Assembly: GCF_022682495.2 (NCBI RefSeq) | Contig: NW_026527566.1 | Location: forward strand, 136,501-200,500 | Length of the DNA stretch: 64,000 nt | Direction of reading: 5' to 3' | Source: Desmodus rotundus | Taxonomy: Eukaryota > Chordata > Mammalia > Chiroptera > Phyllostomidae | The notes under the pieces: generated by a model | What the model was told of the DNA's origin: nothing | Database searches by the model: none | The model's input: the letters and a program-made list of their open reading frames with translations, nothing else | Position numbers and translations under genes: made by a program | Shown here: positions 600-22,900 of the stretch, in pieces | How positions within the stretch are numbered: position 1 is the first letter of the stretch | Layout of the letters: every line of letters begins with the position of its first letter

Positions 600-600
600 A

Positions 601-610
601 TCCCTCCTTT
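601..610 (-). other. Polypurine tract (plus-strand primer site)
   Basis: On the minus strand this reads AAAGGAGGGA, followed by one T and then the TG that opens the LTR. A purine run immediately before the 3' LTR is where retroviruses prime plus-strand DNA synthesis. Its position fixes the inner LTR boundary at 599/600. Confidence 0.8.
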
Positions 611-3243: not shown

Positions 3244-5493
3244 GAAGGGCTCAGTTTTAAGCCCACTTCTGGGTGCCACTCTGATTCGGAGCAGAGCGAT
3301 AGGGAGTGCTTGGTCCCACTTTAAATGTGTTTCCTGGCATATTTTTGCCAAGGTCTTCTTTATGGTGTGATTCATTTTCTCAGTCTTTCCGGTGGACTGA
3401 GGTCTCCAAGATGCATGCAATTTCCATTGTATCTGCAATGCCTGCCCAAACTTCTGGGAGATTTCTGAAGTGAACGATGGTCCATTGTCGCTTTGAATGC
3501 TCTGGGGAAGTCCAAACCTGGGAATTATTTCTTTAAGCAACAGTTTTGCCACCTCAGTTGCCTTTTCAGTCCTGGTGGGGTACACCTCTACCCATCCAGA
3601 AAAAGTATCCACAAAGACCAACAGGAATCTGAAATTTCCCGTTGTTTTAGGCATTTGTGTAAAGTCCACCTGCCAGTCTTCGAATGGGCACATCCCTTTG
3701 TATTGTACTCCCTTTTCCGTGGGAGCATGCTCTGTTTTGGGATTGTTCTTAGCACATATCTGACAGGCTTGGCTGATCCTATGGACAGTCTTTTGCAAAT
3801 AAGGGCCCTTCAAATGTGGCCTAATGAAGTCCATTAGAGCATCCCTTCCATAATGAGTCCCTTCATGGAGGTGCTTGAGGACGGGATACACTAGAGCCTC
3901 TGGGAGTAAAATCATACCATGGGCATTGACCCTCCACATAGAATTAGGATCAGTGTTAGTGAATCCCCATTCACGGGCCCGTTCCTCATCCTGTTCTGTG
4001 TAATGAGGTTTAAACTCTGACAAGTCCAGATGGGGAACCAGTGCTGCTAGGCATGGCTGCTTCTTGGCTGCCTGTCTTGCTGCTCTGTCAGCAACTTGGT
4101 TTCCCTGACTGGTTTGGGAACCATCCCTCTGGTGCCCTGGGCAGTGCATTATAGCAACCCGGTCCGGTACATTCACTGCCTCCAGCAACTGTAAAATCAC
4201 CTCCGCGTGTTTTACACCCTTGTTCCCCAAGGTTAAAAGTCCTCTCTCTCTCCATATTGCTCCATGGGCATGCACTACCATGAAGGCATACTTGGAGTCT
4301 GTATATATGTTAACTTTCTTTCCTTGGGAGAGCAGTAAGGCTCTTGTAAGGGCTATCAGTTCAGCCTTTTGTGCTGAGGTTCCTGGCATAAGGCCTTGGG
4401 CTTCTATTACTTTGTCTGCAGTGGCCACCGCATACCCCGCTCGTCGCTGGCCATTGTCCATGAAGCTGCTCCCGTCTGTATACAGCTCCCAGTCCAGCGA
4501 CGCCAGCGGCTGGTCCATCAGATCTGGCCTGCTAGAATAAACTTGGTCAATTATTTCCACGCATTCATGCGCAAGGGTGGAGTCCCCTTCCACATCTGGG
4601 AGTAGGGTGGCTGGGTTCAGGGTTGTAGTGGTCTGCAAGGTAACATTTGGATTGTCCAACAAAATGGCCTGGTATTTTCCCATACGCCCTGCCGTCAGCC
4701 AATATCCTCCTCTCTGTTCTAGCAGAGTCAGAACCTGATGTGGCACCAACAGTGTAGTAGGTTGTCCCAAGGTAAACTTCTCAGCTTCCTGTAAGATGTC
4801 ACAGGTGGCTGCTACTACCCGGAGGCACGATGGCCATCCTTTCGTTGTGTGATCCAGCTTCTTTGATAGATAGGCTATGGGCCGGGGAATATTCCCCAGG
4901 GTCTGGGTTAGCACCCCCAGTCCTATCCCCTGCCTTTCATGGATATACAATTTGAAAGGCTTCTGTAAGTCCGGCAGTCCTAATGCAGGGGCCGAAGCTA
5001 GCTTCTCCTTCAAGGTGTCAAATGCTACCTGGCAATCCCTTGTCCATTCAAGGGGTTCAGAGCCCAGTCCTTTTAAGGAATTATACAGTGGCTTTGCTAT
5101 GAGTCCAAAGTTTGGAATCCAAATTCGGCAAAACCCCGTAATTCCCAAGAATCCACGAAGCTGCCTTCGATTTTCTGGGATTTTTAGCGTAGCAATGGCT
5201 TGCTTTCTATCTGCCATTAGGCTTCTGGTACCCTGTTTTAGTTGGAATCCCAGATATGCCACTTCCTGTTTGCAGATTTGGGCCTTATGAGGTGACACTT
5301 TATATCCCCTCTTCGCCAAATGATTCAGGACTGTGATGGTGTTGTGCAAACAGTCCTCGTAGTTTCTGCTGGCTATTAACAGGTCATCGACATATTGCAA
5401 AAGAACTCCTGATCGCAACTGAACATCCCTCAAGTCTTTCGCCAGCACTTCCCCAAATATAGTTGGGGAGTTCTTAAATCCTTGTGGCAGCAC
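3238..5493 (-). pseudogene. pol: Pol: reverse transcriptase (C-terminal part), RNase H, integrase
   Basis: This is a 751-codon open frame. RT fingers/palm continues from the upstream fragment with LPQGF, then the catalytic YVDD box (residues 34-37, genome 5383-5394), thumb and connection. RNase H occupies about residues 335-485 with acidic residues D340, E378, D399 and D469. Integrase has an N-terminal HHCC zinc site (H543, H547, C577, C580) and a core with D610, D669 and E705; the last two are separated by 35 residues, the DX35E spacing. All of these catalytic residues are present. The frame begins right after a TAG at 5497-5499 and ends at TAG 3238-3240, where a frameshift displaces the C-terminal domain. 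GTG at 5493 is not a genuine start; the fragment belongs to a Gag-Pol polyprotein. Confidence 0.96.
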
Positions 5494-5496
5494 AGT

Positions 5497-6426
5497 CTAG
5501 CAATATTGGAGTGTGGCTTTAGTCTCTGGGTTCTGCCACTCAAAAGCAAACAGTTGCTGAGACTGCTCATCTATTGGGATGCAGAAAAAGGCATCCTTCA
5601 AGTCCAGGACTGAGAACCACTTGCTATCCCCAGGCACCATAGTCAACAGTGTGTAAGGGTTAGGCACAGTAGGGTGAATGTCCTGGACAATGTCACTGAT
5701 GGCCCTGAGATCCTGTACAAACCGATACTCATCTGAGTGTGGCTTTTTGACTGGTAAAATGGGAGTGTTGTAGGGTGACCGGCAAGGCCGAATTAATCCT
5801 GATTTCAAAAACTTCTGCAACACTGGCTGGATTCCCTCTAAAGCCTCCTTTTTGAGGGGATACTGCTTCTTTCGTGGGACCCGTGCCCCTTCTTTTAGAT
5901 ATATCTTTATAGGTTGTACATTAACCGCTTTACCTGGCGTTCCGTCAGCCCAAACAGTTTGATCGACCTGTTCACAGATCTCAGGTGGGAAGGGTTCACC
6001 TCCAGGGCCTCCAGGACAAGCCAGGAAAGCCTGAAGCTGGAGGGCATTCTCCAGCGGGACCTCCACACACAGCTGCTTTCGCTTGGGGGAAAAGGTTATT
6101 TGTGCATGCAGTTTACAAAGCAAATCTCGGCCCAACAATGGAATGGGACAATCAGGCATATAGAGAAAACTATGTGTAAGCTTTTGACCCCCAAGCTGGC
6201 ATTCCAGAGGTTGCAGGAATGTCTGTTTTTGTACCTGGCCAGACACACCAGTAACTGTTACTTCATTTGAGGTTTTTCCTGTTAATTTTGTGTTCAACAC
6301 TGAGTATGTGGCTCCCGTATCTACAAGAAAGTCAATTGGCTTGTTCCCCACAGTCACTTGTACCCAGGGCTCCTGTGGGGAAATGGTAATAGGTCGGGAG
6401 ATGTCCCATGGAGCCCCTGGGCCTCC
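5497..6426 (-). pseudogene. pol: Pol: protease and N-terminal reverse transcriptase, ended by a nonsense codon
   Basis: This frame opens directly after the gag TGA at 6427-6429 and is in the same frame as NC. The aspartic protease active-site motif DTGA lies at 6310-6321, and the LLGRDLL segment typical of retroviral proteases follows. A linker leads into RT fingers (YPLKKEAL, then LVKKP-like and LDLKDAFF motifs; the first catalytic RT aspartate is in the LDLKD stretch). Translation stops at TAG 5497-5499, just before LPQGF of the palm, so RT is cut in two although the frame is unchanged. Protease and the first RT half are otherwise uninterrupted. The stretch has no ATG of its own, in keeping with expression by readthrough from gag. 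Confidence 0.95.
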
Positions 6427-6429
6427 TCA
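6427..6429 (-). other. In-frame TGA between gag and pol (probable readthrough stop)
   Basis: NC ends in TGA, and protease continues in the same frame with no upstream start codon. This is the gammaretroviral arrangement in which Pol is made by suppression of the gag stop. The following bases, GGAGGCCCAGGGGC on the minus strand, are purine- and G-rich, as in the readthrough context of that group. Known examples mostly use UAG; here it is UGA. A pseudoknot was not verified. Confidence 0.7.
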
Positions 6430-7122
6430 CTCTTTATCATCCTCCGTTTTCTGCTTCACCGTTACTCGGTATGGACTTTTACTCCTACTTTCCCTTTGGC
6501 GATTTGGGCACTCATTTCTCCAGTGACCCTCCTCCTTACAATGGGCACATTGATTGATGCCTCTTGGGCCTTTCTTCTTCTCCTTAGGGCCCCTTTTTCC
6601 ACCAGCATGGTAGCGGGCACCTAAAGAGTTTCCTGTCTCTGCCCTAGGGTCCTGCTTCTTTTGGCTTCCCTGGGCCATTTCCAAAAACACTGTGGCCCGT
6701 TTTGCCTTTCCTGCTTCCCGGGCATTGTAGACTTTAAATGCTATGTCCACCAGCTGGGAAGGGCTCATTCCCAGTACTCCATCTACACGCTGAAGTTTGT
6801 TCCTAATGTCCGGGGCACTCTGCCCAATAAAAGTCATGTTTACCATCCTCACGTTTTCTGGTGCCTCTGGGTCAGCATCAGTGTACTTCCTATAAGCCTG
6901 ATAGATCCTTTCTAGAAATTCAGAAGGATCCTCATCTGCCTTCTGCTGGAGAGTCTGTATCACATTCAAGCTCCTCTGTTTGGGCACTCCTTTCCTAAGC
7001 CCTTCCAATATGCACCTTCTGTAATGCTTCAAAGAGGCTAGGCCACCTCTACTATTCGGGTCCCACTTAGGGTCCACCCGAGGAATTGCCTCAGCTGGGT
7101 CAAGGATTCCCTGGGTGTCTTC
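6427..7122 (-). pseudogene. gag: Gag: capsid C-terminal domain and nucleocapsid
   Basis: The frame is open from about 7125 to the TGA at 6427. The first part holds the capsid C-terminal region, with the end of the major-homology-like stretch and helices of the dimerisation domain (for example EDPSEFLERIYQAYRKYT). Next comes a charged, coiled stretch, then a lysine/arginine-rich nucleocapsid with one CCHC zinc knuckle, CAHCKEEGHWRNEC (6508-6549), matching CX2CX4HX4C. A single knuckle is typical of gammaretroviral NC; it binds the packaging signal of genomic RNA. The fragment is out of frame with the capsid N-terminal segment, the shift lying at about 7121-7128. Confidence 0.92.
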
Positions 7123-7816
7123 ATCGTGGAGCCTCCTGATTAGCCCTATTCAGAACTAATCGTCTTTCGTCTGCTGTTAGCAAAATGTTCAGGAGGGCCT
7201 GTACATCTGCCCAATTCGGGTGGTGAGTGGCAAAAATAGAGGCAACAAGATCCGCCACTTTCTGAGGGTCATCTCTATATGAGGGGTTGAAATTCTTCCA
7301 ATTTAGTAAGTCCGAAGTGGAGAACGGAGTATGGGCCCAGTAATAGCCAGCAGGCTGGCCTTCTTCATTTACTCCGCCTATCGGGTATTGCCTCAAAGGG
7401 TATTGGCTGGCTACACCTTTGGAGGTTCTCTGGTTGTATAAGGTGCCCTGGCAAGTTCGGGGGGGTGAGAGATATTCCTCAACACATGGAGATGGAACAG
7501 TTGGTTTTGCAGTTCCCACTTCAGGGTCAGTTATAGGAGGAGACAGTACTGAAGTGGCTCCTGCCTGAGGAGGGGAAGGTACCACTGCACTGGCAGTCCC
7601 TATCACCTGTGAGGCCAGAGGTGTAAAAACCTCCACCGACTGTGGGGGCGGGAGCGCCGCGGAGGCCCCTCCCGTCTGCAAGGGGTGAAGCACCATGGAG
7701 GTCCCTCCAGTCTGCAGAGGGAACGGGGCAGGGCCGGTCCCTCCCACCTGGGAGGGCGGCAAAGCAACGGAGGCCCCTCCCGTCTGCAGAGGGAACGGAG
7801 CCCCACCGGCCTCCAC
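7121..7816 (-). pseudogene. gag: Gag: proline-rich linker and capsid N-terminal domain
   Basis: The proximal half consists of 12-residue repeats rich in P, G, A and S (such as PLQTGGASAALP). The distal half contains a gammaretroviral capsid N-terminal signature: a YYWAHTPFSTSDLLNWKNFN stretch, followed by a helix ending in LLNILLTADERR. The frame ends at TGA 7121-7123, where a frameshift separates it from the capsid C-terminal domain. Upstream, the matching frame is lost at an 11-bp tandem duplication (7808-7829). No PPxY or PTAP/PSAP late-budding motif is visible in the linker. The apparent start codon at 7816 is not an ATG initiator. Confidence 0.9.
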
Positions 7817-8511
7817 CAGGCCTCCACCACCTGCGAGAACGGCAACTCCGTGGAGGCCCCCGCCACCCGCAGGGGGCGAGGATCAGTGCTGGAGACCTCT
7901 GTCACCTGCAGTGGGGAGGGAGCCGCGGCGGGCCCCACTCCCGGGGAAGGTAGCGACACCACCGATGTCCCTCCTCCTGGGGAGGGTTCATTCCCTGGGT
8001 TCAGAGCATTAATGAGGTTTATCTCCTCATTATCTTTCTCCTCCTGCGTTCTACTATCAGGGAGGGGTTTCGAGACCACCTTCTCCTTCTGCACCATTAC
8101 ACGCTTCTCTGTCTCTGGCATAAGGCTATTGTGCAATATTATAAATGCATTAAGGTAGTGGAGTTCTTCCGAGAGTTCCCGCCTTCGGCAGTACTGTTTC
8201 AACCTCATAATAATACAATAACTCAAGGAACCATTCACAGGCCACACCATCTCATCACTCAAAACATAAGTAGGCCACACTGTGTTACAATAATAAACCA
8301 ATAACTGCTTACTCAAGGGATTCTTATCTGTCGACTTAGAGCAGTAGTTCTCCCAATCCCTTAGAATTCTGCCCAGTGGGCTCCACTCAGGTACGGGCTC
8401 AGAACAACGTGTATAGTTCCAACAAAGCATGCAAAGATTCAGAGCAAGAAGAATACAGATGACATATAGACAGGGTATTTCCCCAGCTATTGTCCACAAC
8501 TCCAACCCCAT
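7603..8511 (-). pseudogene. gag: Gag: matrix domain with hydrophobic N-terminal extension
   Basis: The first ATG in this frame is at 8509-8511 and encodes M-G-L-E, so glycine is available at position 2. Residues 12-31 from that start form an uninterrupted hydrophobic stretch (IPCLYVICILLALNLCMLCW) followed at once by an N-Y-T glycosylation sequon. The gammaretroviral matrix-like domain begins near residue 45 (WSPLGRILRDWENY) and includes YYCNTVWPTYVLS and a second sequon, NGS. A charged segment and the start of the proline-rich linker follow. After the 11-bp duplication at 7808-7829 this frame reads unrelated residues to TGA at 7603. The frame is also open upstream of the ATG to about 8550. 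The roughly 45-residue extension before matrix is longer than in usual gammaretroviral Gag. Confidence 0.82.
7630..7925 (-). repeat. 36-bp in-frame minisatellite in gag linker
   Basis: The motif gtctgca recurs at 7674, 7710 and 7782 (36 and 72 bp apart), with a diverged copy between. On the minus strand this gives 12-residue units such as PLQTGGASVALP, PSQVGGTGPAPF, PLQTGGTSMVLH and PLQTGGASAALP, with weaker units on both sides. The 36-bp period preserves frame, so length change here would be tolerated by a living virus. The 11-bp duplication at 7808-7829 inside it does not preserve frame. Confidence 0.8.
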
Positions 8512-8719
8512 TATTCCAAAACAGTTACCAGAAAAGAAATTCTCAACCAAAACACTTTCGCGTCCCTGTTCCCTTCTCCGTTCGGTTTCCTTTTCACCTT
8601 TCCCGGCGTGATTAGGCGGCCGATGCCCTCAGGAGCGCAGAGAAACTCTCAGAGACTGGGAAAACTCCGAAGTCTCTCTCTCCCACACCGGAGGGGGTCG
8701 GTCTGCCACGGGCAATTAT
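8512..8719 (-). other. Proviral leader (between primer binding site and gag)
   Basis: About 200 bp between the primer binding site and the first gag ATG. Packaging and dimerisation signals and a splice donor would be expected here; I could not recognise any of them with confidence. Part of the stretch, up to about 8550, is in frame with gag. Confidence 0.6.
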
Positions 8720-8737
8720 GTCCCATCTGGGTCGCCA
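8720..8737 (-). other. Primer binding site, arginine tRNA type
   Basis: The minus strand reads TGGCGACCCAGATGGGAC, starting with the TGG that pairs with the CCA end of a tRNA. It sits at the inner edge of the right LTR and upstream of gag. From memory, the closest mammalian tRNA 3' end is tRNA-Arg(CCU), with two mismatches; other arginine isoacceptors match less well. The location and TGG start are firm, while the tRNA identity is tentative. Confidence 0.75.
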
Positions 8738-8916
8738 AAAAACCGTTACAGAGCAGAGGGGGTGGGGGTGGTTCACGATAAATTATTACAGAAAGGATTC
8801 CACCTTTCTGTCTCTGGAGGTTCCTTCCCCCACGCCCACCTGCTAGGTTCGCAATGCCCGCCGCCAGAGGAAAGACGTCTCTCAATGCCACAGACTGGTG
8901 AAAAGGAAAGGAATTG

Positions 8917-8922
8917 TTTATT
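8917..8922 (-). promoter_or_regulatory. LTR polyadenylation signal AATAAA
   Basis: AATAAA on the minus strand, within the LTR about 180 bp before the primer binding site. It is followed by a pyrimidine-rich stretch with CA about 17-20 bases downstream, a usable cleavage site. This is the right distance for the end of R in a class I LTR. Confidence 0.7.
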
Positions 8923-9250
8923 TAAAAGTTACACAAACTTAGAATAATGACCTAATGTCTTCAATAAGATACTAAAGTCCTCTAGAACACCCACAGATGC
9001 ACAGTCCTTCCCTCTCCCTGTGCCCAATCCGGGGTACCGTATCTCAGGAAAAGAAGTAGAAGTCCATGATTCAGGCTCCCGGCACCATCAGCTGGGTGGC
9101 TGCTGCAATCTCCAGTTAATCCAAAGCCATGTGGCACCTTCTCATGGCCCACCAGCAAGAGTCCTCTCTCCCCTTTCTCTATGGCTGCAAAGTCTCTCCT
9201 GCTGCCTAAGCCGCGTGGCAAGAAGAAGCACTCCAAAACCTCTTTACTCT

Positions 9251-9452
9251 CCTTCAGAACCGCGTGGTCATTTTCCCTATTTACTTTGGAGCCGCGTGGT
9301 CTCCTCCTTCTCCCCCAAAACCTTGTAGCCCTCCCCTACTACTATGGAGCCGCGTGGTCTCTTCTTTACTTCAGAGCCGCATGATCTATCCTTTACTTCA
9401 GAGCCGCACGGTCTCTCCTTCCCTTCAGAGCCGCATGGTCTCTCCTCCTATG
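9251..9452. repeat. 27-32 bp tandem repeats inside the LTR
   Basis: A motif close to cttcagagccgcatggtctc recurs with gccgc (or accgc) at about 9259, 9291, 9349, 9376, 9403 and 9431; spacings are 27-32 bp and one gap of two units. The left LTR retains the equivalent of the last copies at about 18-65. Repeats of this kind in U3/R are often enhancer repeats, but no specific factor is implied here. Confidence 0.8.
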
Positions 9453-9973
9453 GCTGCCGGGCCTAGGTTTAAATCCCAGTTCCCATCTTCCTTTGCAGCC
9501 CATTTCCGACTCCTCCTACAGTCAGCTACACCTGCCAGCATCCCCGTATTCTTCCAGCTTTACTGGGCTGCCACAGTAAGTCTGGGCAGGTGTGGCCCCA
9601 TGGCTTGGAGCCAATCATCTCCAAGCTCTCATGCAGGCCCTGTAACCAGGGGGAGTTGCTTCCAGTCCCATGTTGGGTGGAAGCCACTCCCATCTCCCTG
9701 GCTCAAAGCAGGGCCACAGCTATTTAATATATCCATGAAACCAGTTAAAGGTTATAGATATGTTAAATGACTGCCAGGAGTTAGCTACAAAGCTGTTGCT
9801 ACCCAAAACAGCTCTGAATGGCCCTGTTCCATGTGTCCCATCCCCCCTGGCTCAGGCCTGTAGGGGTGAGGATATCCTATATACATTTTTCTAATGTTTC
9901 CTGGACACCCCGAGTCCTGGACCCCATTACAAATACCTTCTTGGGGCCCTCCTCTTGGCTGCACCCTGCTTCA

Positions 9974-10210
9974 CGGGCACCTGGCATACGTGGAGGCAAA
10001 CCCGCAGACACCTCTGGCCCGAACCCACCACTGCGAAGATCCCCCCTTTCTTCCATTCGTAAAGGGATCCTCCTTGAGGAGTGGAGGAACATAGGGAGGC
10101 CCCCAGGAGAGGGCTTTTCTCCGAGCCGCGACTGGCTTCTTTCGGGCCAAACGTGGGCCGCGCGTGCCCACTCAGGCTCCCCACCACAAGCCTCCCTCGG
10201 GTCACAGGAC
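9974..10210. repeat. Edge satellite monomer 1, truncated at the provirus
   Basis: The sequence starts in mid-monomer with cgggcacctggcatacgtgg, which is identical to the interior of the monomer at about 14085. It continues through the hairpin site (10046-10090) to the start of the first minisatellite block. The left part of this monomer is missing at the LTR boundary and would be expected beyond the other end of the provirus, outside the window. Confidence 0.85.
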
Positions 10211-10486
10211 CCAACCTTGAGGTGTTTCCTGACCCACCCTTGGGGGGTCACGTCACCCACCCCTGAGGGGTCACGTGACCCACCCTTGAGGGGTCTCGTG
10301 ACTCACCCTTGAGGTCAAGTGACCCACCCCTGAGGGGTCTCGTGACCCATCCCTGAGGGGTCTCGTGAACCACCCTTGAGAGGTCACGTGACCCACCCCG
10401 AGGGGTCACGTGACCTACCCTTTTGGGGTCACGTGACCCACACTTGAGGGGTCACATGACCCACCTTGAGAGGTCACAGCAGTTTT
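10211..10486. repeat. CACGTG minisatellite, block 1
   Basis: Tandem units of about 25 bp of the form ggggtcacgtgacccaccct, with degenerate units carrying gtctcgtgac or gtcacatgac. Four intact CACGTG cores are present. The block ends with ttgagaggtcacagcag, which starts the next monomer core. Confidence 0.9.
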
Positions 10487-11021
10487 ACAGGGTCCCTGCG
10501 CACCTGTTCGGGGAAACAGAAGCCCTCCCTGCCACTCAGAGGACCGCACGATTTCCCACAGGCCACACTGCCTAGCAGCACCTTCAGCCCCGCACAGACC
10601 GTGTGCTAAGGACAGACTTGGGTACCGGGGGCATGGGCGGGGGATTTCCCATGGAACTCTCTAAGGGCCCGGCGCCCTGTGTGGCCGGGGGAGTGCCCAT
10701 GCCGTTCCTTGACCCCGCAGGACACTTGCATCCAGCAATAAGCAGCCCTCTGCCTCCACGGGGCACAAACACCTGGGCCCGTTGTGCGAGCACCTGGCGT
10801 ACGTGCAGGCAAACCCGCAGACCCCTCTGGCCCGAACCCACCACTGCGAAGATCCCCCTTTTCTTCGATCCGTAAAGGGGTCCTCCTTGAGGAGTGGAGG
10901 GACATGGGGAGGCCCCCAGGAGATGGCTATTCTCCAAGCCGCGGCTGGCTGGTTTCGGCCTATACGTGGGCCGCGCGTGCGCACTCAGGCTCCCCACCAC
11001 AAGCCTCCCTCCGGTCACGGG
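10487..11021. repeat. Edge satellite core 2
   Basis: A core of about 535 bp running from ttttacagggtccctgcgca to the next minisatellite. It aligns with main-array monomers at both ends but lacks their extra segment of about 430 bp. The hairpin site is a quasi-palindrome (ttcttcgatccg ... ggagtggaggga), not a perfect palindrome. Confidence 0.85.
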
Positions 11022-11402
11022 ACTCACCCTTGAGGTGGCTCCTGACCCACCCTGGAGGAGTCACGTCACCCACCCCTGAGGGGTCACGAGACCCACCCCT
11101 GAGGGGTCACGTGACGCACCCCTGAGGGGTCACGTGACCCACCCCTGAGGGGTCACGTGACCCACCCCTGAGGGGTCACATGACCCACCCCTGAGGGGTC
11201 ACATGACCCAACCCTGAGGGGTCACGTGACCCACCCCTGAGGGGTCACATGACGCACCCCTGAGGGGTCACGTGACCCACCCTTGAGGAGTCTCGTGACC
11301 CACCCTTTTGGGGTCACGTGTCCCACCCTTCAGTGGTCTCGTGACCCACCTTTTTGGGGTCACGTGTCCCGCCCTCGAGGGGTCACATGACCCACCTTGA
11401 GA
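11022..11402. repeat. CACGTG minisatellite, block 2
   Basis: The most regular block, with near-identical 25-bp units (gaggggtcacgtgacccacc) and seven CACGTG cores, plus variants with gtcacatgac and gtctcgtgac. It occupies the same point in the monomer as blocks 1, 3 and 4. Confidence 0.92.
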
Positions 11403-11953
11403 GGTCACAGCAGTTTTACAGGGTCCCTGCGCACCTGTTCGGGGAAACAGAAGCCCTCCCTGCCACTCAGAGGACCGCACGATTTCCCACAGGCCACACT
11501 GCCTAGCAGCACCTTCAGCCCCGCACAGACAGTGTGCTAAGGACAGACTTGGGTACTGGGGGCATGGGCGGGGGATTTCCCATGGAACTCTCTAAGGGCC
11601 CGGCGCCCTGTGTGGCCGGGGGAGTGCCCATGCCGTTCCTTGACCCCGCAGGACACTTGCATCCAGCAATAAGCAGCGCTCTGCCTCCACGGGGCTCAAA
11701 CACCTGGGCCCGGTGTGCGGGCACCTGGCGTACGTGGAGGCAAACCCGCCGACCCCTCTGGCCCGAACCCACCACTGCCAAGATCCCCCTTTTCTTCCAT
11801 CCATAAAGGGGTCACGCTTGAGGAGTGGAAGAACATGGGGAGGCCCCCAGGAGATGGCTTTTCTCCGAGCCGCGGCTGGCTGGCTTCGGGCCTATACGTG
11901 GGCCGCGCGTGCGCACTCAAGCTCCCCACCACAAGCCTCCCTCGGGTCACGGG
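11403..11953. repeat. Edge satellite core 3
   Basis: A core of about 550 bp, nearly identical to core 4 and very close to core 2. The quasi-palindrome at its hairpin site is ttcttcca ... tggaagaa, with a mismatched interior. Confidence 0.85.
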
Positions 11954-12242
11954 ACTCACCCTTGAGGTGTCTCCTGACCCAACCCTGAGGGGTCACGTGG
12001 CCCACCCTGAGGGGTCACGTGACCCAACCCTGAGTGGTCACGTGACCCAACCCTGAGGGTCTCGTGACCCACCCCTGAGGGGTCACGTGACCCACCCCTG
12101 AGGGGTCACATGACCCGCCCCTGAGGGGTCACATGACCCACTCTTGAGGAGTCTCGTGACCCACCCTTGAGGGGTCCCGTGACCCACCCTTGGGAGGTCA
12201 CCTGCCCCACCCTTGAGGGGTCACATGACCCACCTTGAGAGG
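11954..12242. repeat. CACGTG minisatellite, block 3
   Basis: About eleven 25-bp units with four CACGTG cores. Toward the right the units decay to gtctcgtgac, gtcccgtgac and gtcacctgcc. It ends at the standard ttgagaggtcacagcag junction. Confidence 0.9.
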
Positions 12243-12812
12243 TCACAGCAGTTTTACAGGGTCCCTGCGCACCTGTTCGGGGAAACAGAAGCCCTCCCTG
12301 CCACTCAGAGGACCGCGCGATTTCCCACAGGCCACACTGCCTAGCAGCACCTTCAGCCCCGCACAGACCGTGTGCTAAGGACAGACTTGGGTACCGGGGG
12401 CATGGGCGGGGGATTTCCCATGGAACTCTCTAAGGGCCCGGCGCCCTGTGTGGCCGGGGGAGTGCCCATGCCGTTCCTTGACCCCGCAGGACACTTGCAT
12501 CCAGCAATAAGCAGCCCTCTGCCTCCACGGGGCTCAAACACCTGGGCCCGGTGTGCGGGCACCTGGCGTACGTGGAGGCAAACCCGCCGACCCCTCTGGC
12601 CCGAACCCACCACTGCCAAGATCCCCCTTTTCTTCCATCCGTAAAGGGGTCACGCTTGAGGAGTGGAAGAACATGGGGAGGCCCCCAGGAGATGGCTTTT
12701 CTCCGAGCCGCGCCTGGCTCGTTTCGGGCCTATATGTGGGCCGCGCATACGCACTCAGGCTCCCAAGCACACACCTCCCTCGGCTCACCTGACCCACCCT
12801 TTAGAGGTCACG
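12243..12812. repeat. Edge satellite core 4 with a vestigial minisatellite
   Basis: Very close to core 3 in its left part. At its right end the minisatellite is reduced to about one unit (ctcacctgacccaccctttagaggtcac, about 12783-12811) before the next core begins. This single-unit state is the nearest in the edge region to main-array monomers, which have no minisatellite. Confidence 0.82.
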
Positions 12813-13355
12813 GCAGTTCCACAGGGTCCCTGGGCACCTGTCCGTGGACACAGGAGCCCTCCCTGCCACCTAGAGGACCACGCGATTTCCGCTGGGGAAC
12901 ACTGCCCAGAAGCACTCCCAGCCTCGCACAGACACTGTGCGCAGGATAGACTTGTGGACCAGGGGCCTGGGCCGGGAATTTTCCAGGGAACTCTCTAAAG
13001 GCCAGGTGCCCTCTGTCGCCCTGGGAGTGCCCACGCCCTCCCTTAACCCTGCAGGACACTATCATCCAGCAATAAGGAGCCCTCTGCCTCCACGGGGCTC
13101 AAACACCAGGGCCGGTTGTGCGAGCACCTGGCGTACGTGCAGGCAAACCCGCAGACCCCTCTGGCCCGAACCCACCACTGCGAAGATCCCCCTTTTCTTC
13201 CATCCGTAAAGGGGTCCTCCTTGAGGAGTGGAGGGACATGGGGAGGCCCCCAGGAGATGGCTTCTCTCCGAGCCGCGGCTGGCTGGTTTCGGGCCTATAC
13301 GTGGGCCGCGCGGGCGCACTCAGGCTCCCCACCACAAGCCTCCCTCGGGTCACGG
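12813..13355. repeat. Edge satellite core 5
   Basis: A core of 543 bp, more diverged in its left half than cores 2-4. Its length sets the estimate of the ancestral monomer without minisatellite: a main-array monomer of 972 bp is about 430 bp longer. Confidence 0.83.
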
Positions 13356-13762
13356 GACTCACCCTTGAGGTGTCTCCTGACCCACCCTGGAGGAGTCACG
13401 TCACCCACCCCTGAGGGGTCTCGTGAACCGCCCCTGAGGGGTCACGTGACCCACCCTTGAGGAGTCTCGTGACCCACCCTTTTGGGGTCACGTGACCCAC
13501 CCTTTGAGGTGTCTCGTGACCCACCCCTTTGGGGTCACGTGACCCGCCCCGAGGGGTCACGTGACCCAGCCCTGAGTGGTCACGTGACCGAACCCTGAGG
13601 GGTCTCGTGACCCACCCCTGAGGCGTCACGTGACCCACACCTGAGGGGTCACATGACCCGACCCTGAGGGGTCACGTGACCCACCCTTGAGGAGTCTCGT
13701 GACCCACACTTTTGGGGTCACGTGACCCACCCTTGAGGGGTCACATGACCCACCTTGAGAGG
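13356..13762. repeat. CACGTG minisatellite, block 4
   Basis: The longest block, about 16 units of 25 bp with eight CACGTG cores. Two unit types alternate in places, one with the gtcacgtgac centre and one with gtctcgtgac, giving a hint of a 50-bp supra-period. Confidence 0.9.
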
Positions 13763-14320
13763 TCACAGCAGTTTTACAGGGTCCCTGCGCACCTGTTCGG
13801 GGAAACAGAAGCCCTCCCTGCCACTCAGAGGACCGCACGATTTTCCACAGGCCATACTGCCTAGCAGCACCTTCAGCCCCACACAGACCGTGTGCTAAGG
13901 ACAGACTTCGGTACCGGGGGCATGGGCGGGGGATTTCCCATGGAACTCTCTAAGGGCCCGGCGCCCTGTGTGGCCGGGGGAGTGCCCATGCCGTTCCTTG
14001 ACCAGCAGGACACTTGCATCCAGCAATAAGCAGCCCTCTGCCTCCACAGGGCTCAAACACCTGGGCCGAGTGTGCGGGCACCTGGCATACGTGGAGGCAA
14101 ACCCGCCGACCCCTCTGGCCCGAACCCACCACTGCGAAGATCCCCCTATTCTTCCATCCGTAAAGGGGTCACTCTTGAGGAGTGGAAGAACATGGGGAGT
14201 ACCCCAGGAGATGGCTTTTGTCCGAGCCGCGGCTGGGTGGTTTCGGGCCAAGAGGCGGGGCCGCGCAGGCACAAGCAGGCCCCACCCCAAGAGCATCCCT
14301 CCGGGCAACGTGCCCCCCCC
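13763..14320. repeat. Transition monomer (edge type to main-array type)
   Basis: The left part matches edge cores 2-4, including the quasi-palindrome ttcttcca (14149-14156) and tggaagaa (14183-14190). From about 14236 (gggccaagaggcggggccgc) to 14320 it matches main-array monomers. It has neither the extra 430-bp segment nor the minisatellite, so it looks like a recombinant between the two classes. Confidence 0.82.
14149..14190. repeat. Quasi-palindrome at the hairpin site of the transition monomer
   Basis: Arms ttcttcca and tggaagaa pair perfectly, but the interior (tccgtaaagggg against cttgaggag) does not. The same imperfect form occurs in edge cores 3 and 4. It occupies the exact site of the perfect palindrome in class P monomers and shares its left half with it. 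Confidence 0.9.
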
Positions 14321-14532
14321 TTGAGATATCAGGCCAGGTCCACAGGGTCCCTGGGCTGGTGTCAGTGTTAACGGAGGCCCTCCCTGCCACCCACAGGACC
14401 GCGCGTTTTCCCGTGGACCACACTTCCCAGCAGCTCTCCCACTCCCGCAGAGGCAGAGTGCCAGGAAAGAACTAGGGACCTGGTGCCTGGAAGAGGGGCC
14501 GGCCACGGTTCCGCGCCAGGTGGAGCGGTTCC

Positions 14533-14547
14533 GGGCGGGCGGGCGGG
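14533..14547 (+). other. G-quadruplex motif / GC-box cluster in the monomer
   Basis: GGGCGGGCGGGCGGG: four G3 runs with single-base loops, also overlapping GGGCGG boxes of the Sp1 type. It lies in the 430-bp segment that edge cores lack. It recurs in most class P and class L monomers; some copies read gagcgggcgggcggg and lose one run, and class A-type segments carry gggcgggcccgggcgggcggg instead. Confidence 0.85.
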
Positions 14548-14642
14548 ACCCTCGATGAAGGACCGGTTCTCCCTTGGGGAGTCTGGCCTGTGCCCCGCCT
14601 GGAAGGCTAAGAGCCTTGCTTCGCCTGCAAAGCCCCCACCCT

Positions 14643-14657
14643 GCCACAAGGCGGCAG
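14643..14657 (+). promoter_or_regulatory. CTCF-like motif in the monomer (weak candidate)
   Basis: gccacaaggcggcag resembles the CTCF core consensus CCASYAGRKGGCRS with two mismatches. It is repeated in class P monomers and lies in the 430-bp added segment. Variant copies read ccccgaggcggcaaa. Motif similarity only; no binding is implied. Confidence 0.3.
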
Positions 14658-15112
14658 ACTTGGACCCAGCCGCTTCAACCCTCCAGTCTCTGCGGAACCA
14701 CCCAAAAATGGAGTGTGACCGCTGCGATCTCAGTCCCCCAGAGCTCGAACCCCCACCTCTGTGAGGGAATCGGCGACCTCCGGTCCTTGGCGTCCGCAAA
14801 AGGCATTCACCTGCAGTGAACCTGGGCCTCGGGCGAGCACGGCCAGGCCCCATGGTAGGAGCCCGGGGAGGCAATGGCAGCCTCTGCGGCCAGGCCTCGG
14901 ACTCTCCCCGGGGCTCTCTCGGGTCCCAGGCGCCCTCTCTCGCCCGGGGAGTGCCCACGCCGTCCCCTGACCCCCGCAGGACGCCTGCATCCCGCCATAA
15001 GCGGCCCACCTCGTCCATGGAGCTGGGACACATGGGGCCGGGGTGCGAGCAACTGGCCTACGTGGCTGCAAACCCGCAGACCCCTCCGTCCCGTCCCCAC
15101 CACTGCGAAGAT

Positions 15113-15168
15113 CCCCCTGTTCTTCCATCCGTAAAGGGGTCCCCCTTTACGGATGGAAGAACAGGGGG
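15113..15168. repeat. 56-bp perfect palindrome, first copy (class P hairpin)
   Basis: Two 27-bp arms flank a 2-base loop. The centre reads GTAAAGGGG-TC-CCCCTTTAC and the outer ends are CCCCCTGTTC and GAACAGGGGG. The arms are exact reverse complements. The same structure recurs once in every class P monomer (for example about 17057, 18029, 24648, 41808, 62809), so it is a fixed part of the repeat unit. Confidence 0.97.
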
Positions 15169-18100
15169 GAGGCCCTCAGGAGATGGCTTTTGCCCGAGCC
15201 GCGGCTGGGTGGTTTCGGGCCAAGAGACGGGGCCGCGCAGGCGCAAGCAGGCCCCACCCCAAGAGCATCCCTCCGGGCAACGTGCCCCCCCCTTGAGATA
15301 TCAGGCGTGGTCCACAGGGTCCCTGGGCTGGTGTCAGAGTTAACTGAGGCCCTCCCTGCCACCCAGAGGACGGCGCGTTTTCCCGTGGACCACACTTGCC
15401 AGGCCGTCTCCCACCCCGCCAGAGGCAGAGTGCCAGGGAAGAGCTAGGGACCTGGGGCAGGGAAGAGGGGCCGGCCACGGTTCCGGGCCAGGTGGGGCGG
15501 GCCCGGGCGGGCGGGACCCACGCCCAGGGACCGGGTCTCCCTGGGGGTCTCGGGCCTGAGACCTGCCTGGGGGGCTAAGAGTCTCTCTTGGCTCATACGG
15601 CCCCACCCTGCCCCGAGGCGGAAAACTTGGACCGAGACGCTTCTACTCTCTAAAGTCTGGGCTGAACTTTGCGAGAAGGGACTGTGTGCGCTGCGACCTG
15701 GGTCCCACAGAGCTCGAACCCCCCTCCCCGTGAAGGGATCCGCGGCCTGTGGTCCCTGGTGTCCGCAAAAGGCATTCACCTGCGGAGAACCTGGGCCCAG
15801 GTGAGCGGGACCAGGTCCCACGGCAGGAGCCTGGGGAGGCCACTGGTGCCCCGGGGGCCAGGACTGGGCATTTTCCCGGGTGCTCTCTCGTGTCCCAGGC
15901 GCCCCCTCTCGCCCTGGGAGTGCCCACGCCGTCCCCTGACCCCCGCAGGACGCCTGCATCCCGCCATAAGCGGCCCACCTCGTCCATGGAGCTGGGACAC
16001 ATGGGGCCGGGGTGCGAGCAACTGGCCTACGTGGCTGCAAACCCGCAGGCCCCGCCGTCCCGTCCCCACCACTGCGAAGATCCCCCTTTTCTTCCATCCG
16101 TAAAGGGGTCCCCCTTTACGGATGGAAGAACAGGGGGGAGGCCCCCAGGAGATGGCTTTTGTCCGAGACGCGGCTGGGAGGTTTGGGGCCAAGAGGCGGG
16201 GCCGCGCAGGCGCAAGCAGGCCCCACCCCAAGAGCATCCCTCCGGGCAACGTGCCCCCACCTTGAGATATCAGGCCAGGTCCACAGGGTCCCTGGGCTGG
16301 TGTCAGAGTTAACGGAGGCCCTCCCTGCGACCCAGAGGACCGCGCGTTTTCCCGTGGACCACACTTCCCAGCAGCTCTCCCACCCCCGCAGAGGCAGAGT
16401 GCCAGGAAAGAACTAGGGACCTGGTGCCTGGAAGAGGGGCCAGCCACGGTTCCGCGCCAGGTGGAGCGGTTCCGGGCGGGCGGGCGGGACCCTCGACCAA
16501 GGACCGGTTCTCCCTTGGGGAGTCTGGCCTGTGCCCCGCCTGGGAGGCCAAGAGCCTTGCTTCGCCTGCAAAGCCCCCACCCTGCCACAAGGCGGCAGAC
16601 TTGGACCCAGCCACTTCAACCCTCCAGTCTCTGCGGAACCACCCAAAAATGGAGTGTGACCGCTGCGGCCTCAGTCCCCCAGAGCTCGAACCCCCACCTC
16701 TGTGAGGGAATCGGCGACCTCCTGTCCTTGGCGTCCGCAAAAGGCATTCACCTGCGGTGAACCTGGGCCTCGGGCGAACACGGTCAGGCCCCATGGTAGG
16801 AGCCCGGGGAGGCAATGGCAGCCTCTGCGGCCAGGCCTCGGACTCTCCCCGGGGCTCTCTCGGGTCCCAGGCGCCCTCTCTCGCCCGGGGAGTGCCCACA
16901 CCGTCCCCTGTCCCCCGCAGGACGCCTGCATCCCGCCATAAGCGGCCCACCTCGTCCATGGAGCTGGGACACATGGGGCCGGGCTGCGAGCAACTGGCCT
17001 GTGTGGTTGCAAACCCGCAGAACCCTCTGTCCCGTCCCCACCACTGCGAAGATCCCCCTGTTCTTCCATCCGTAAAGGGGTCCCCCTTTACGGATGGAAG
17101 AACAGGGGGGAGGCCCCCAGGAGATGGCTTTTGTCCGAGACGCGGCTGGGAGGTTTGGGGCCAAGAGGCGGGGCCGCGCAGGCCCAAGCAGGCCCCACCC
17201 CAAGAGCATCCCTCCGGGCAACGTGCCCCCCCCTTGAGATATCAGGCCAGGTCCACAGGGTCCCTGGGCTGGTGTCAGAGTTAACGGAGGCCCTCCCTGC
17301 CACCCAGAGGACTGCGCGTTTTCCCGTGGACCACACTTCCCAGCAGCTCTCCCACCCCCGCAGAGGCAGAGTGCCAGGAAAGAACTAGGGACCTGGTGCC
17401 TGGAAGAGGGGCCAGCCACGGTTCCGCGCCAGGTGGAGCGGTTCCGGGCGGGCGGGCGGGACCCTCGACCAAGGACCGGTTCTCCCTTGGGGAGTCTGGC
17501 CTGTGCCCCGCCTGGGAGGCCAAGAGCCTTGCTTCGCCTTTAAAGCCCCCACCCTGCCACAAGGCGGCAGACTTGGACCCAGCCACTTCAACTCTCCAGT
17601 CTCTGCGGAACCACCCAAAAATGGAGTGTGACCGCTGCGGCCTCAGTCCCCCAGAGCTCGAACCCCCACCTCTGTGAGGGAATCGGCGACCTCCTGTCCT
17701 TGGCGTCCGCAAAAGGCATTCACCTGCGGTGAACCTGGGCCTCGGGCGAACACGGTCAGGCCCCATGGTAGGAGCCCGGGGAGGCAATGGCAGCCTCTGC
17801 GGCCAGGCCTCGGACTCTCCCCGGGGCTCTCTCGGGTCCCAGGCGCCCTCTCTCGCCCGGGGAGTGCCCACACCGTCCCCTGTCCCCCGCAGGACGCCTG
17901 CATCCCGCCATAAGCGGCCCACCTCGTCCATGGAGCTGGGACACATGGGGCCGGGCTGCGAGCAACTGGCCTGTGTGGTTGCAAACCCGCAGAACCCTCC
18001 GTCCCGTCCCCACCACTGCGAAGATCCCCCTGTTCTTCCATCCGTAAAGGGGTCCCCCTTTACGGATGGAAGAACAGGGGGGAGGCCCCCAGGAGATGGC

Positions 18101-18991
18101 TTTTGTCCGAGACGCGGCTGGGAGGTTTGGGGCCAAGAGGCGGGGCCGCGCAGGCGCAAGCAGGCCCCACCCCAAGAGCATCCCTCCGGGCAACGTGCCC
18201 CCCCCTTGAGATATCAGGCCAGGTCCACAGGGTCCCTGGGCTGGTGTCAGTGTTAACGGAGGCCCTCCCTGCCACCCACAGGACCGCGCGTTTTCCCGTG
18301 GACCACACTTCCCAGCAGCTCTCCCACCCCCGCAGAGGCAGAGTGCCAGGAAAGAACTAGGGACCTGGTGCCTGGAAGAGGGGCCGGCCACGGTTCCGCG
18401 CCAGGTGGAGCGGTTCCGGGCGGGCGGGCGGGACCCTCGACCAAGGACCGGTTCTCCCTTGGGGAGTCTGGCCTGTGCCCCGCCTGGGAGGCCAAGAGCC
18501 TTGCTTCGCCTGCAAAGCCCCCACCCTGCCACAAGGCGGCAGACTTGGACCCAGCCGCTTCAACCCTCCAGTCTCTGAGGAACCACCCAAAAATGGAGTG
18601 TGACCGCTGCGACCTCAGTCCCCCAGAGCCCGAACCCCCACCTCTGTGAGGGAATCGGCGACCTCCTGTCCTTGGCGTCCGCAAAAGGCATTCACCTGCG
18701 GTGAACCTGGGCCTCGGGCGAACACGGCCAGGCCCCATGGTAGGAGCCCGGGGAGGCAATGGCAGCCTCTGCGGCCAGGCCTCGGACTCTCCTCGGGGCT
18801 CTCTCGGGGCACGGGCACCCTCTCTCGCCTAGAGAGTGCCCACGCCGTGCCTTGAGCCCCGCGAGACACCTGCTTCCCGTGATAAGAGGCCCCCTGCCTC
18901 CGTGGAGCTTGGAACTCTGGGGCCGGGCTGCGGGTCCCTGGGCTAAGTGGCTGGAAGCGCGCAGACCCCTCCGTCCCGACCGCCCAACTGC

Positions 18992-19006
18992 GAAGGACAG
19001 GGGGGA
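18992..19006. repeat. Excised hairpin site, first class L monomer
   Basis: Here gcgaaggacagggggg replaces the whole palindrome. Compared with class P, 49 bp between two GAAG direct repeats are absent, one GAAG flanking the left arm and one inside the right arm. The same scar occurs in all 13 monomers of 924-925 bp (for example about 21835, 23706, 26575, 35173). Confidence 0.9.
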
Positions 19007-19930
19007 GGCCCCCAGGAGATGGCTTTGTTCAGAGCCACGGCTGGCCGGTTTCGGGCCAAGACGCGGGACCCGGCACGCTCAGGACAGGCAGCCTCAGCAC
19101 AAGCCTCCCTCGGGGCAACGGGCCCCACCCTGGACATATCAGGCCTGCTTCACAGGGTCCCTGGGGTCGTGTCCGTGGAACTGGAAGCTCTCCCCGCCAC
19201 CCAGAGGTCCGTTCCTTTTCCCGTGGACCACACTTGCCAGCCCGTCTTACACCCCGCCAGAGGCAGAGTGCCAGGGAAGAGCTAGGGACCCGGGGCCTCG
19301 ATGAGGGGCGGGCCAGGGTTCCACGCCTGGTGGGCAGGGGCCCGGGCGGGCCGGACCCACGCCCAGGGACCCCGTCTCCAGGGGGGACTCGGGCCTGAGA
19401 CCTGCCTGGGGGGCTATGAGTCTTTCCTGGCTCAATCGGCCCCACCCTGCCCCCAGGCGGGAAACGTGCACCGAGACGCTTCTACTCTCTAAAGTCTGGG
19501 CTGGACTTCGCGAGAAGGGACTGTGTCCACTGGGACCCGGGTCCCACAGAGCTCGAACCCCCCTCCCCGTGAAGGCATCCGCGGCCTGTGGTCCCTGGTG
19601 TCCGCAAAAGGCATTCACCTGCGGAGAACCTGGGCCCAGGTGAGCGGGACCAGGCCCCACGGCAGGAGCCTGGGGAGGCCACTGGAGCCCCGGGGGCCAG
19701 GGCTGGGCATTTTCCCGGGTGCTCTCTCGGGTCCCAGGCGCCCTCTCTCGCCCGGGGAGTGCCCACGCCGTCCCCTGACCCCCGCAGGACGCCTGCATCT
19801 CGCCATAAGCGGCCCACCTCGTCCATGGAGCTGGGACACATGGGGCCGGGGTGCGAGGAACTGGCCTACGTGGCTGCAAACCCGCAGACCCCTCCGTCCC
19901 GTCCCCACCACTGCGAAGATCCCCCTGTTC

Positions 19931-19956
19931 TTCCATCCGTAAAGGGGTCCCCGGGA
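19931..19956. repeat. One-armed hairpin site, first class A monomer
   Basis: The left arm (tcttccatccgtaaagggg) is intact, but the sequence jumps from tcccc straight to gggaggccc, missing 22 bp of the right arm. This accounts for the 948-bp class. It recurs at about 22790, 27530, 31343, 36130, 39945, 45655, 46605, 51387, 55206 and 60911. Confidence 0.9.
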
Positions 19957-22900
19957 GGCCCCCAGGAGATGGCTTTTGTCCGAGACGCGGCTGGGTGGTT
20001 TCGGGCCAAGAGGCGGGGCCGCGCAGGCGCAAGCAGGCCCCACCCCAAGAGCATCCCTCCGGGCAACGTGCCCCCCCCTTGAGATATCAGGCGTGGTCCA
20101 CAGGGTCCCTGGGCTGGTGTCAGAGTTAACTGAGGCCCTCCCTGCCACCCAGAGGACGGCGCGTTTTCCCGTGGACCACACTTGCCAGGCCGTCTCCCAC
20201 CCCGCCAGAGGCAGAGTGCCAGGGAAGAGCTAGGGACCTGGGGCAGGGAAGAGGGGCCGGCCACGGTTCCGGGCCAGGTGGGGCGGGCCCGGGCGGGCGG
20301 GACCCACGCCCAGGGACCGGGTCTCCCTGGGGGTCTCGGGCCTGAGACCTGCCTGGGGGGCTAAGAGTCTCTCTTGGCTCATACGGCCCCACCCTGCCCC
20401 GAGGCGGAAAACTTGGACCGAGACGCTTCTACTCTCTAAAGTCTGGGCTGAACTTTGCGAGAAGGGACTGTGTGCGCTGCGACCTGGGTCCCACAGAGCT
20501 CGAACCCCCCCTGCCCGTGAAGGGATCCGCGGCCTGTGGTCCCTGGTGTCCGCAAAAGGCATTCACCTGCGGAGAACCTGGGCCCAGGTGAGCGGGACCA
20601 GGTCCCACGGCAGGAGCCTGGGGAGGCCACTGGTGCCCCGGGGGCCAGGACTGGGCATTTTCCCGGGTGCTCTCTCGTGTCCCAGGCGCCCCCTCTCGCC
20701 CTGGGAGTGCCCACGCCGTCCCCTGACCCCCGCAGGACGCCTGCATCCCGCCATAAGCGGCCCACCTCGTCCATGGAGCTGGGACACATGGGGCCGGGGT
20801 GCGAGCAACTGGCCTACGTGGCTGCAAACCCGCAGGCCCCGCCGTCCCGTCCCCACCACTGCGAAGATCCCCCTTTTCTTCCATCCGTAAAGGGGTCCCC
20901 CTTTACGGATGGAAGAACAGGGGGGAGGCCCCCAGGAGATGGCTTTTGTCCGAGACGCGGCTGGGAGGTTTGGGGCCAAGAGGCGGGGCCGCGCAGGCGC
21001 AAGCAGGCCCTCCCCAAGAGCATCCCTCCGGGCAACGTGCCCTCCCCTTGAGATATCAGGCCAGGTCCACAGGGTCCCTGGGCTGGTGTCAGTGTTAACG
21101 GAGGCCCTCCCTGCCACCCAGAGGACCGCGCGTTTTCCCGTGGACCACACTTCCCAGCAGCTCTCCCACCCCCGCAGAGGCAGAGTGCCAGGAAAGAACT
21201 AGGGACCTGGTGCCTGGAAGAGGGGCCGGCCACGGTTCCGCGCCAGGTGGAGCGGTTCCGGGCGGGCGGGCGGGACCCTCGACCAAGGACCGGTTCTCCC
21301 TTGGGGAGTCTGGCCTGTGCCCCGCCTGGGAGGCCAAGAGCCTTGCTTCGCCTGCAAAGCCCCCACCCTGCCACAAGGCGGCAGACTTGGACCCAGCCGC
21401 TTCAACCCTCCAGTCTCTGCGGAACCACCCAAAAATGGAGTGTGACCGCTGCGGCCTCAGTCCCCCAGAGCTCGAACCCCCACCTCTGTGAGGGAATCGG
21501 CGACCTCCTGTCCTTGGCGTCCGCAAAAGGCATTCACCTGCGGTGAACCTGGGCCTCAGGCGAGCACGGCCAGGCCCCATGGTAGGAGCCCGGGGAGGCA
21601 ATGGCAGCCTCTGCGGCCAGGCCTCGGACTCTCCCCGGGGCTCTCTCGGGGCACGGGCACCCTCTCTCGCCTAGAGAGTGCCCACGCCGTGCCTTGAGCC
21701 CCGCGAGACACCTGCTTCCCGTGATAAGAGGCCCCCTGCCTCCGTGGAGCTTGGAACTCTGGGGCCGGGCTGCGGGTCCCTGGGCTAAGTGGCTGGAAGC
21801 GCGCAGACCCCTCCGTCCCGACCGCCCAACTGGGAAGGACAGGGGGGAGGCCCCCAGGAGATGGCTTTGTTCAGAGCCGCGGCTGGCCGGTTTCGGGCCA
21901 AGACGCGGGACCCGGCAGGCTCAGGACAGGCAGCCCCAGCACAAGCCTCCCTCGGGGCAACGGGCCCCACCCTGGACATATCAGGCCTGCTTCACAGGGT
22001 CCCTGGGGTCGTGTCCGTGGAACTGGAAGCTCTCCCCGCCACCCAGAGGTCCGTTCCTTTTCCCGTGGACCACACTTGCCAGCCCGTCTTACACCCCGCC
22101 AGAGGCAGAGTGCCAGGGAAGAGCTAGGGAACCGGGACCTCGATGAGGGGCGGGCCAGGGTTCCACGCCTGGTGGGCAGGGGCCCGGGCGGGCCGGAACC
22201 ACGCCCAGGGACCCCGTCTCCAGGGGGGACTCGGGCCTGAGACCTGCCTGGGGGGCTATGAGTCTTTCCTGGCTCAATCGGCCCCACCCTGCCCCGAGGC
22301 GGCAAACGTGCACCGAGACGCTTCTACTCTCTAAAGTCTGGGCTGGACTTCGCGAGAAGGGACTGTGTCCACTGGGACCCGGGTCCCACAGAGCTCGAAC
22401 CCCCCTCCCCGTGAAGGCATCCGCGGCCTGTGGTCCCTGGTGTCCGCAAAAGGCTTTCACCTGCGGATAACCTGGGCCCAGGTGAGCGGGACCAGGCTCC
22501 ACGGCAGGAGCCTGGGGAGGCCACTGGAGCCCCGGGGGCCAGGGCTGGGCATTTTCCCGGGTGCTCTCTCGGGTCCCAGGAGCCCTCTCTCGCCCGGGGA
22601 GTGCCCACGCCGTCCCCTGACCCCCGCAGGACGCCTGCATCCCGCCATAAGCGGCCCACCTCGTCCATGGAGCTGGGACACATGGGGCCGGGGTGCGAGG
22701 AACTGGCCTACGTGGCTGCAAACCCGCAGACCCCTCCGTCCCGTCCCCACCACTGCGAAGATCCCCCTGTTCTTCCATCCGTAAAGGGGTCCCCGGGAGG
22801 CCCCCAGGAGATGGCTTTTGTCCGAGACGCGGCTGGGAGGTTTCGGGCCAAGAGGCGGGGCCGCGCAGGCGCAAGCAGGCCCCACCCCAAGAGCATCCCT

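Follow-up and report, generated by a model that had tools for sequence, protein, structure and literature searches.

The window that we analysed is a stretch of 64,000 nucleotides from Desmodus rotundus (C429:136501-200500; genome of 2.12 Gb in 574 contigs). It opens with an endogenous retrovirus-like element, read as retroviral by eye, whose ends (3-599 and 9384-9973) share 91.3% identity over 597 bp and resemble an LTR pair. Immediately abutting this element, at 9974, begins a repeat that forms long head-to-tail arrays at high copy number, identifying it as satellite DNA. The satellite superfamily is G+C-rich and is represented in the window by two families: E, at the array edge, with an imperfect inverted repeat, and P, with a monomer of about 970 bp that carries a perfect palindrome at the same site. 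Positions within monomers are given below as alignment columns, in which the palindrome occupies columns 199-254, and loci fetched from the genome carry L numbers. The features are as follows, in window coordinates.

1-9973, minus strand: endogenous retrovirus-like element
9974-14913, plus strand: E-family edge monomers, four of the six with a 23-bp subrepeat (GGTCACGTGACCCACCC...), and a recombinant monomer
10028-10119, plus strand: E-form site in an edge monomer shortened by the element at 1-9973
10841-10932, plus strand: E-form site, edge monomer
13175-13266, plus strand: E-form site, edge monomer
14142-14197, plus strand: E-type quasi-palindrome of the transition monomer
14194-14219, plus strand: E-to-P family junction interval of the transition monomer, between informative columns 251 and 278
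14914-64000, plus strand: P-family array, a mixed higher-order arrangement of TC, GA, D1 and D2 monomers
15113-15139, plus strand: left arm of the first perfect palindrome (P form)
15140-15141, plus strand: the asymmetric centre, TC (2 bp), in place of which other monomers have the inverted GA
15142-15168, plus strand: right arm, exact reverse complement of 15113-15139
17054-17109, plus strand: TC-centred P palindrome of reference monomer A (972 bp; core at 16855)
18799-19721, plus strand: D2 monomer with the palindrome deleted (923 bp, about 76% identity to A over the left core)
19908-19960, plus strand: D1 form, right arm with a 22-bp deletion (280 exact copies genome-wide)
32264-32319, plus strand: palindrome with inverted centre GA and a C-to-T change in the right arm (paired position 19/9)
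33236-33291, plus strand: palindrome with inverted centre GA

The site at 15113-15168 is, as originally predicted, a perfect 56-bp palindrome with exact 27-bp arms around a 2-bp centre. Folded as single-stranded DNA it reached -33.2 kcal/mol, compared to a shuffled mean of -11.8 (z -8.9), and none of 200 shuffles folded as well. E sites at 14132-14206 and 13178-13253 gave -13.7 kcal/mol (z -2.3) and -13.4 kcal/mol (z -0.6), respectively. The imperfect inverted repeat at 14149-14190 is likewise real: of its 27 pairs, 6 are mismatched and 2 are wobbles, and the eight E monomers that we tabulated contained 5-8 mismatches and 1-4 wobbles. A search for structured RNA returned no Rfam match at gathering score in the window. 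Some E variants (L009, L027, L029 and the window edge monomers) carry a small hairpin in the region of the right arm, either CTCCTTGAGGAG or CTCCCTGGGGAG, and by eye these two differ by a two-sided change. E monomers also contain a 23-bp minisatellite, GGTCACGTGACCCACCCYTGAG, at 10199-10477, 11013-11408, 11944-12246 and 13347-13766, which is itself based on the palindrome GGTCACGTGACC; Tandem Repeats Finder (TRF) called it neither in P monomers of the window nor in the E monomer of 565 bp that lies at 12424.

The P-family array is not uniform. By hand count, the 57 satellite cores in the window comprise 20 with a TC-centred palindrome, 8 with a GA-centred palindrome, 11 of the D1 form, in which the right arm is partly lost, 13 of the D2 form, in which the site is almost wholly lost, and 5 of the E form; a sixth E site, at 10028, lies outside these cores, in the monomer shortened by the retrovirus-like element. 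Two tail types, about 77% identical to each other over columns 549-972, are joined to heads that are about 95% identical in the A and beta monomers, indicating that P monomers are mosaics. Non-satellite DNA of about 240 bp separates two monomer pieces within the C4 array (L012, 5977-6216). Genome-wide, the P core has 16,019 exact copies, a pattern that also catches GA-centred copies on the other strand, and the E core has 15,587; the left arm plus TC, TTCTTCCATCCGTAAAGGGGTC, has 37,516. The suggestion that the P form had been amplified to dozens of monomers therefore falls far short, and the two forms are marks of two diverged and very large satellite families. Long G+C-rich palindromes are difficult to sequence, and such difficulty could in principle have generated the different forms as sequencing or assembly artefacts at hairpins. 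This is highly improbable, because the forms recur with near-identical flanks on many contigs and chromosome-scale sequences. The listed P and E sites and the fetched loci include both chromosome-scale and small contigs.

The transition monomer, which had been taken as an intermediate between the two forms, proved to be an E/P recombinant at the edge of the array. It is E-type up to column 251 (14193) and P-type from column 278 (14220). Thirty-five informative sites up to column 251 match E, two others fit neither family, and all 37 informative sites from column 278 to column 532 match P. As a recombinant, this monomer is uninformative on any intermediate state.

The original prediction held that an E-type quasi-palindrome had been converted into the P form by a single template switch, replacing the right half with the complement of the left, and had then been amplified. 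The observation behind it is nearly accurate, since fixed differences between E and P number five in the right arm and one in the left; the exception is column 205, where E has T and P has G, so that the left arm also changed. We found no excess of E/P differences in the right arm: the five differences compare with a mean of 4.0, and 167 of 437 27-bp windows have at least five. The numbers of fixed differences in the right and left arms therefore fit drift of the right arm in E better than the origin of P by a burst of change.

Phylogenetic comparison of the flanks also argues against a single recent conversion. The E/P trees were unrooted, contained no outgroup species, and were built separately for the left and right flanks; in each, E formed one clade apart from P. 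When L038a-e from C1:122.63 Mb and more P and E lineages were added to the left-flank tree, E was one clade among P-type lineages, with ultrafast bootstrap values of 93 when the E3 lineage was included and 100 when it was removed. E3 (L029_1293, L034 and L035; C1:53.64-53.85 Mb) is a third imperfect lineage whose left flank mixes E and P states. The midpoint of the left-flank tree separated L038a, L038b and L038e, the three most diverged P-like relics, from all other sequences, and the most diverged isolated copies that we read were P-like. Old copies that bear the palindrome are, within this one genome, the counterpart of the result by which the original prediction was to be refuted in related species. 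The tree based on 549 columns excludes five rows that were mosaic or short, and two rows, L032_1049 and L029_1293, are poorly aligned past column 384 and distort both that tree and the root of the right-flank tree. A nonreversible root test placed the root at relic L038a on a near-zero branch, with low AU values for the other listed roots, but base decay confounds this result, since copies that stand alone should lose G+C and CpG, and we give it no weight. P is also present in lineages as far from monomer A as E is, divergence over columns 0-384 reaching about 27% among P lineages (L030, L031, the second L033 monomer and D2).

It is nevertheless conceivable that the E-type quasi-palindrome was ancestral, and that one left-over-right template switch in the stem lineage of P preceded the radiation and amplification of P. 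The separation of E and P into different clades of the flank trees means that a single change would cover both states, and template switches that convert imperfect into perfect inverted repeats have been described (PMC8604942). We regard this order of events as rather unlikely, given the missing excess of right-arm differences, the change in the left arm, the P-like relics that lie farther from A than E does, and the position of the left-flank midpoint among P-type copies. The case for an ancestral E is thus weakened, as far as trees lacking a true outgroup root allow, and E is more likely the derived form, with P ancestral, on these unrooted trees.

The P palindrome is old, and its arms have been conserved. 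Of the P monomers, twelve that could be scored in full, 0-23.6% diverged from A in the left flank, retained 24-27 of 27 Watson-Crick pairs. Among isolated relics that are 29-39% diverged, L038b had 4 mismatches in 25 pairs, L038a had 3 mismatches and 3 wobbles in 27, and L038e had 7 mismatches and 3 wobbles in 24; for L038d, scoring was limited to 3 pairs. Across seven P lineages the arms showed pairwise differences of 5.6% and 6.9%, where the mean was 20.8%, and not one of the 438 27-bp windows in the flanks was as low, so that the arms are more alike than the divergence of the flanks allows. The recent effect is weaker: in 89 distinct young A-class monomers, arm diversity was 0.0095 and 0.0074 versus 0.0235 in the flanks, and 16% and 8% of flank windows were as low. 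Among 13 E monomers, with a window mean of 17.0%, the left arm was moderately conserved (6.6%; 17 of 438 windows as low), and the right arm showed no special conservation (14.3%; 183 of 438).

The left arm is also conserved between the families, differing by 10.0% between P and E compared to a mean of 28.8%, with only 2 of 438 windows as low. Arm-to-arm copying cannot account for this conservation, because the E left arm has no perfect partner; a constraint on the sequence itself, or local conversion, is indicated. One possible form of constraint is selection on a protein-binding dyad, in which the palindrome would be a putative binding site for a centromere or heterochromatin factor that keeps the arms alike, rather than a by-product of mutation. 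The families differ least in the left arm and in the neighbouring 27-bp windows at columns 189-216 and 243-270 (11% versus a mean of 28.8%), which speaks for such a site. However, 24 of the 52 array monomers in the window (11 D1 and 13 D2) have no intact site and have been amplified all the same, the CENP-B box motif, NTTCGNNNNANNCGGGN, has no match on either strand of the window, and binding would not be expected to invert the centre exactly. We therefore consider a binding dyad a doubtful explanation of the arms.

The centre of the palindrome records inversion. Our comparison covered the 137 monomers of 900-1000 bp with either a TC or a GA centre, monomers with other centres or deletions being set aside, and the GA centre is known only from the loci analysed. 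TC was present in 115 of these monomers, and its exact reverse complement, GA, in 22. GA occurs in several flank backgrounds, and one GA monomer differs from one TC monomer at only 2 of about 900 flank bases. The flank tree requires at least nine changes between TC and GA, four of which are forced by the starred branches alone, a pattern of exact and recurrent spacer inversion. Control SNPs of similar frequency (n=28) required a mean of 4.6 changes, and only one reached nine or more; that SNP, with 12 changes, exceeds the centre. The excess of homoplasy at the centre thus looks real but is modest, since the tree was partly built from the control SNPs, and their own counts are lowered as a result. 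A single-base centre also occurs in the C4 array, as T in four and as A in two of the scored monomers. Arm pair 23 was A.T in ten cases and G.C in three, in addition to two unpaired types; this is the sole compensatory pair and reflects one or a few branches.

Ordinary conversion and unequal exchange among monomers might make the site uniform and spread TC and GA over different backgrounds without any hairpin. Monomers are indeed mosaic, control SNPs also require several changes (mean 4.6), and GA could have spread by gene conversion among monomers. These processes alone cannot, however, produce an inverted centre or alter both sides of an arm pair within one lineage, and they leave unexplained both why the arms evolve about three times more slowly than the flanks across families about 20% apart and why homoplasy at the centre is about twice that of the controls. 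An account that dispenses with hairpins is accordingly quite improbable.

Homogenised arms and an exact inversion of a 2-bp centre are published footprints of template switching between inverted-repeat arms (PMC8604942), and template switching has also been proposed to create and maintain hairpins (PMC8794818). There is good evidence for repeated, hairpin-type self-copying of an old palindromic satellite element. The original prediction of template switching is thus supported for the kind of process, of which both footprints are present, and not for one recent event; it was right about the type of mechanism and probably wrong about direction and time scale. We propose that the 56-bp palindrome is an old component of the satellite superfamily, and that its near-perfect arms may be maintained as one arm is copied again and again from the other, through hairpin template switching or an equivalent hairpin or cruciform repair, a process that would occasionally invert the asymmetric centre as well. 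The hairpin-prone site would also break or recombine, so that family junctions, block ends and internal deletions would gather inside this site or along its 3' edge. The imperfect form at the array edge belongs to a sister family, E, that most likely arose through loss of the right-arm match. With moderate confidence, we favour this reading of an old, self-copying and fragile palindrome, with E as a derived sister family and the transition monomer at 14149 as a recombinant. We infer that the copying is done by template switching of a polymerase, and not by cruciform resolution or by selection, although cruciform resolution would likewise invert the centre. The small CTCCTTGAGGAG and CTCCCTGGGGAG hairpins of E variants are possibly products of the same process at a smaller scale.

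Several breakpoints in the satellite lie near the palindrome. Six family junctions could be placed within columns 0-549, a set that omits two possible L037 boundaries, and four of the six lie at columns 246-278, the 3' edge of the palindrome: the window junction (13943), L027_7620 and L009_9117 at columns 251-278, and L023_6293 at 246-277. The other two are at columns 153-173 (L035_8095) and about 434-464 (L036_2822). The idea that all junctions fall at the palindrome was rejected at four of six, once more boundaries had been fetched. We also scanned loci L009-L042 and the window for edges at which the satellite meets more than 150 bp of other sequence, with positions expressed in the frame of the best-matching monomer. 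The eight edges are at 622 and 93 (L012), 220-230 (L030), 263 and 59 (L034), 46 (L038), 226 (L041) and 133 (window). Two of these edges, on C1 at 18.99 and 41.44 Mb, are block ends at the palindrome axis, and their flanks have no significant similarity to each other. The sequence beside satellite blocks presumably resembles mammalian interspersed repeats. The locus at C1:122.63 Mb has parts of two monomers in opposite orientation on either side of the palindrome, an inverted duplication centred there, and a second inverted junction in this locus lies away from the palindrome. For a zone of 84 of 972 bp, chosen after the data were seen, probability values were 0.0007 for four of six junctions and 0.026 for three of eight edges; with a 549-bp target they were 0.006 and 0.11.

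These positions suggest that the palindrome may attract breakpoints, and we infer that it is their cause; homology may also steer recombination, because some of the longest stretches identical between E and P lie in the breakpoint zone. A bolder extension would make the palindrome the engine of the satellite: its hairpin would break and restart replication, thereby renewing the arms, flipping the centre, seeding new arrays and inverted duplications, and setting array boundaries, so that the satellite would spread partly through a self-repairing fragile site. We consider this speculative and, on balance, improbable.

Such a mechanism has been described for genes of yeast and for RNA hairpins, and the D. 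rotundus palindrome is an example in a high-copy satellite. Among the reports consulted in part, a close likeness is to inverted-repeat template switching in Saccharomyces (PMC8604942), where arms are perfect in some sequences and imperfect in relatives, changes are multinucleotide, and 2-bp spacers undergo exact, recurrent inversion; in SPO75, a two-base spacer on perfect arms flips repeatedly. The Saccharomyces cases are in genes and have arms of 7-16 bp, whereas here the arms are 27 bp long, the setting is a satellite of about 16,000 copies, and breakpoints occur at the site. The maintenance of RNA hairpins by template switching (PMC8794818) is similar in that a stem is copied from side to side and the loop is inverted, but those stems belong to RNA genes and the window matches no Rfam family. 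The inverted duplication centred on a palindrome in L038 (1342-1750) resembles one described in E. coli (PMC3315005), although that was an assay and ours is an old evolutionary trace, with flanks 71% identical over 138 bp. Quasi-palindrome mutations in yeast (PMC3820800) also extend identity between imperfect arms, whereas the perfect state here looks old and is probably ancestral. Judged by titles and the opening lines of abstracts, none of the papers listed on satellite palindromes and cruciforms or on template switching in satellites describes such an element, and the part of the satellite paper PMC12467311 that we compared, by description rather than by sequence, names no unit of about 970 bp.

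The earlier papers considered here base their inference of hairpin-driven template switching on RNA genes or on scattered single loci. The single genome of D. rotundus offers about 16,000 copies of one palindrome with known flanks, a centre that records inversion, lineages of various ages, deletion products and junctions. With so many copies in known contexts, the rates of arm renewal, centre flipping and breakage are countable, and the satellite copies make it possible to ask whether the limits of satellite arrays are set by fragile palindromes.
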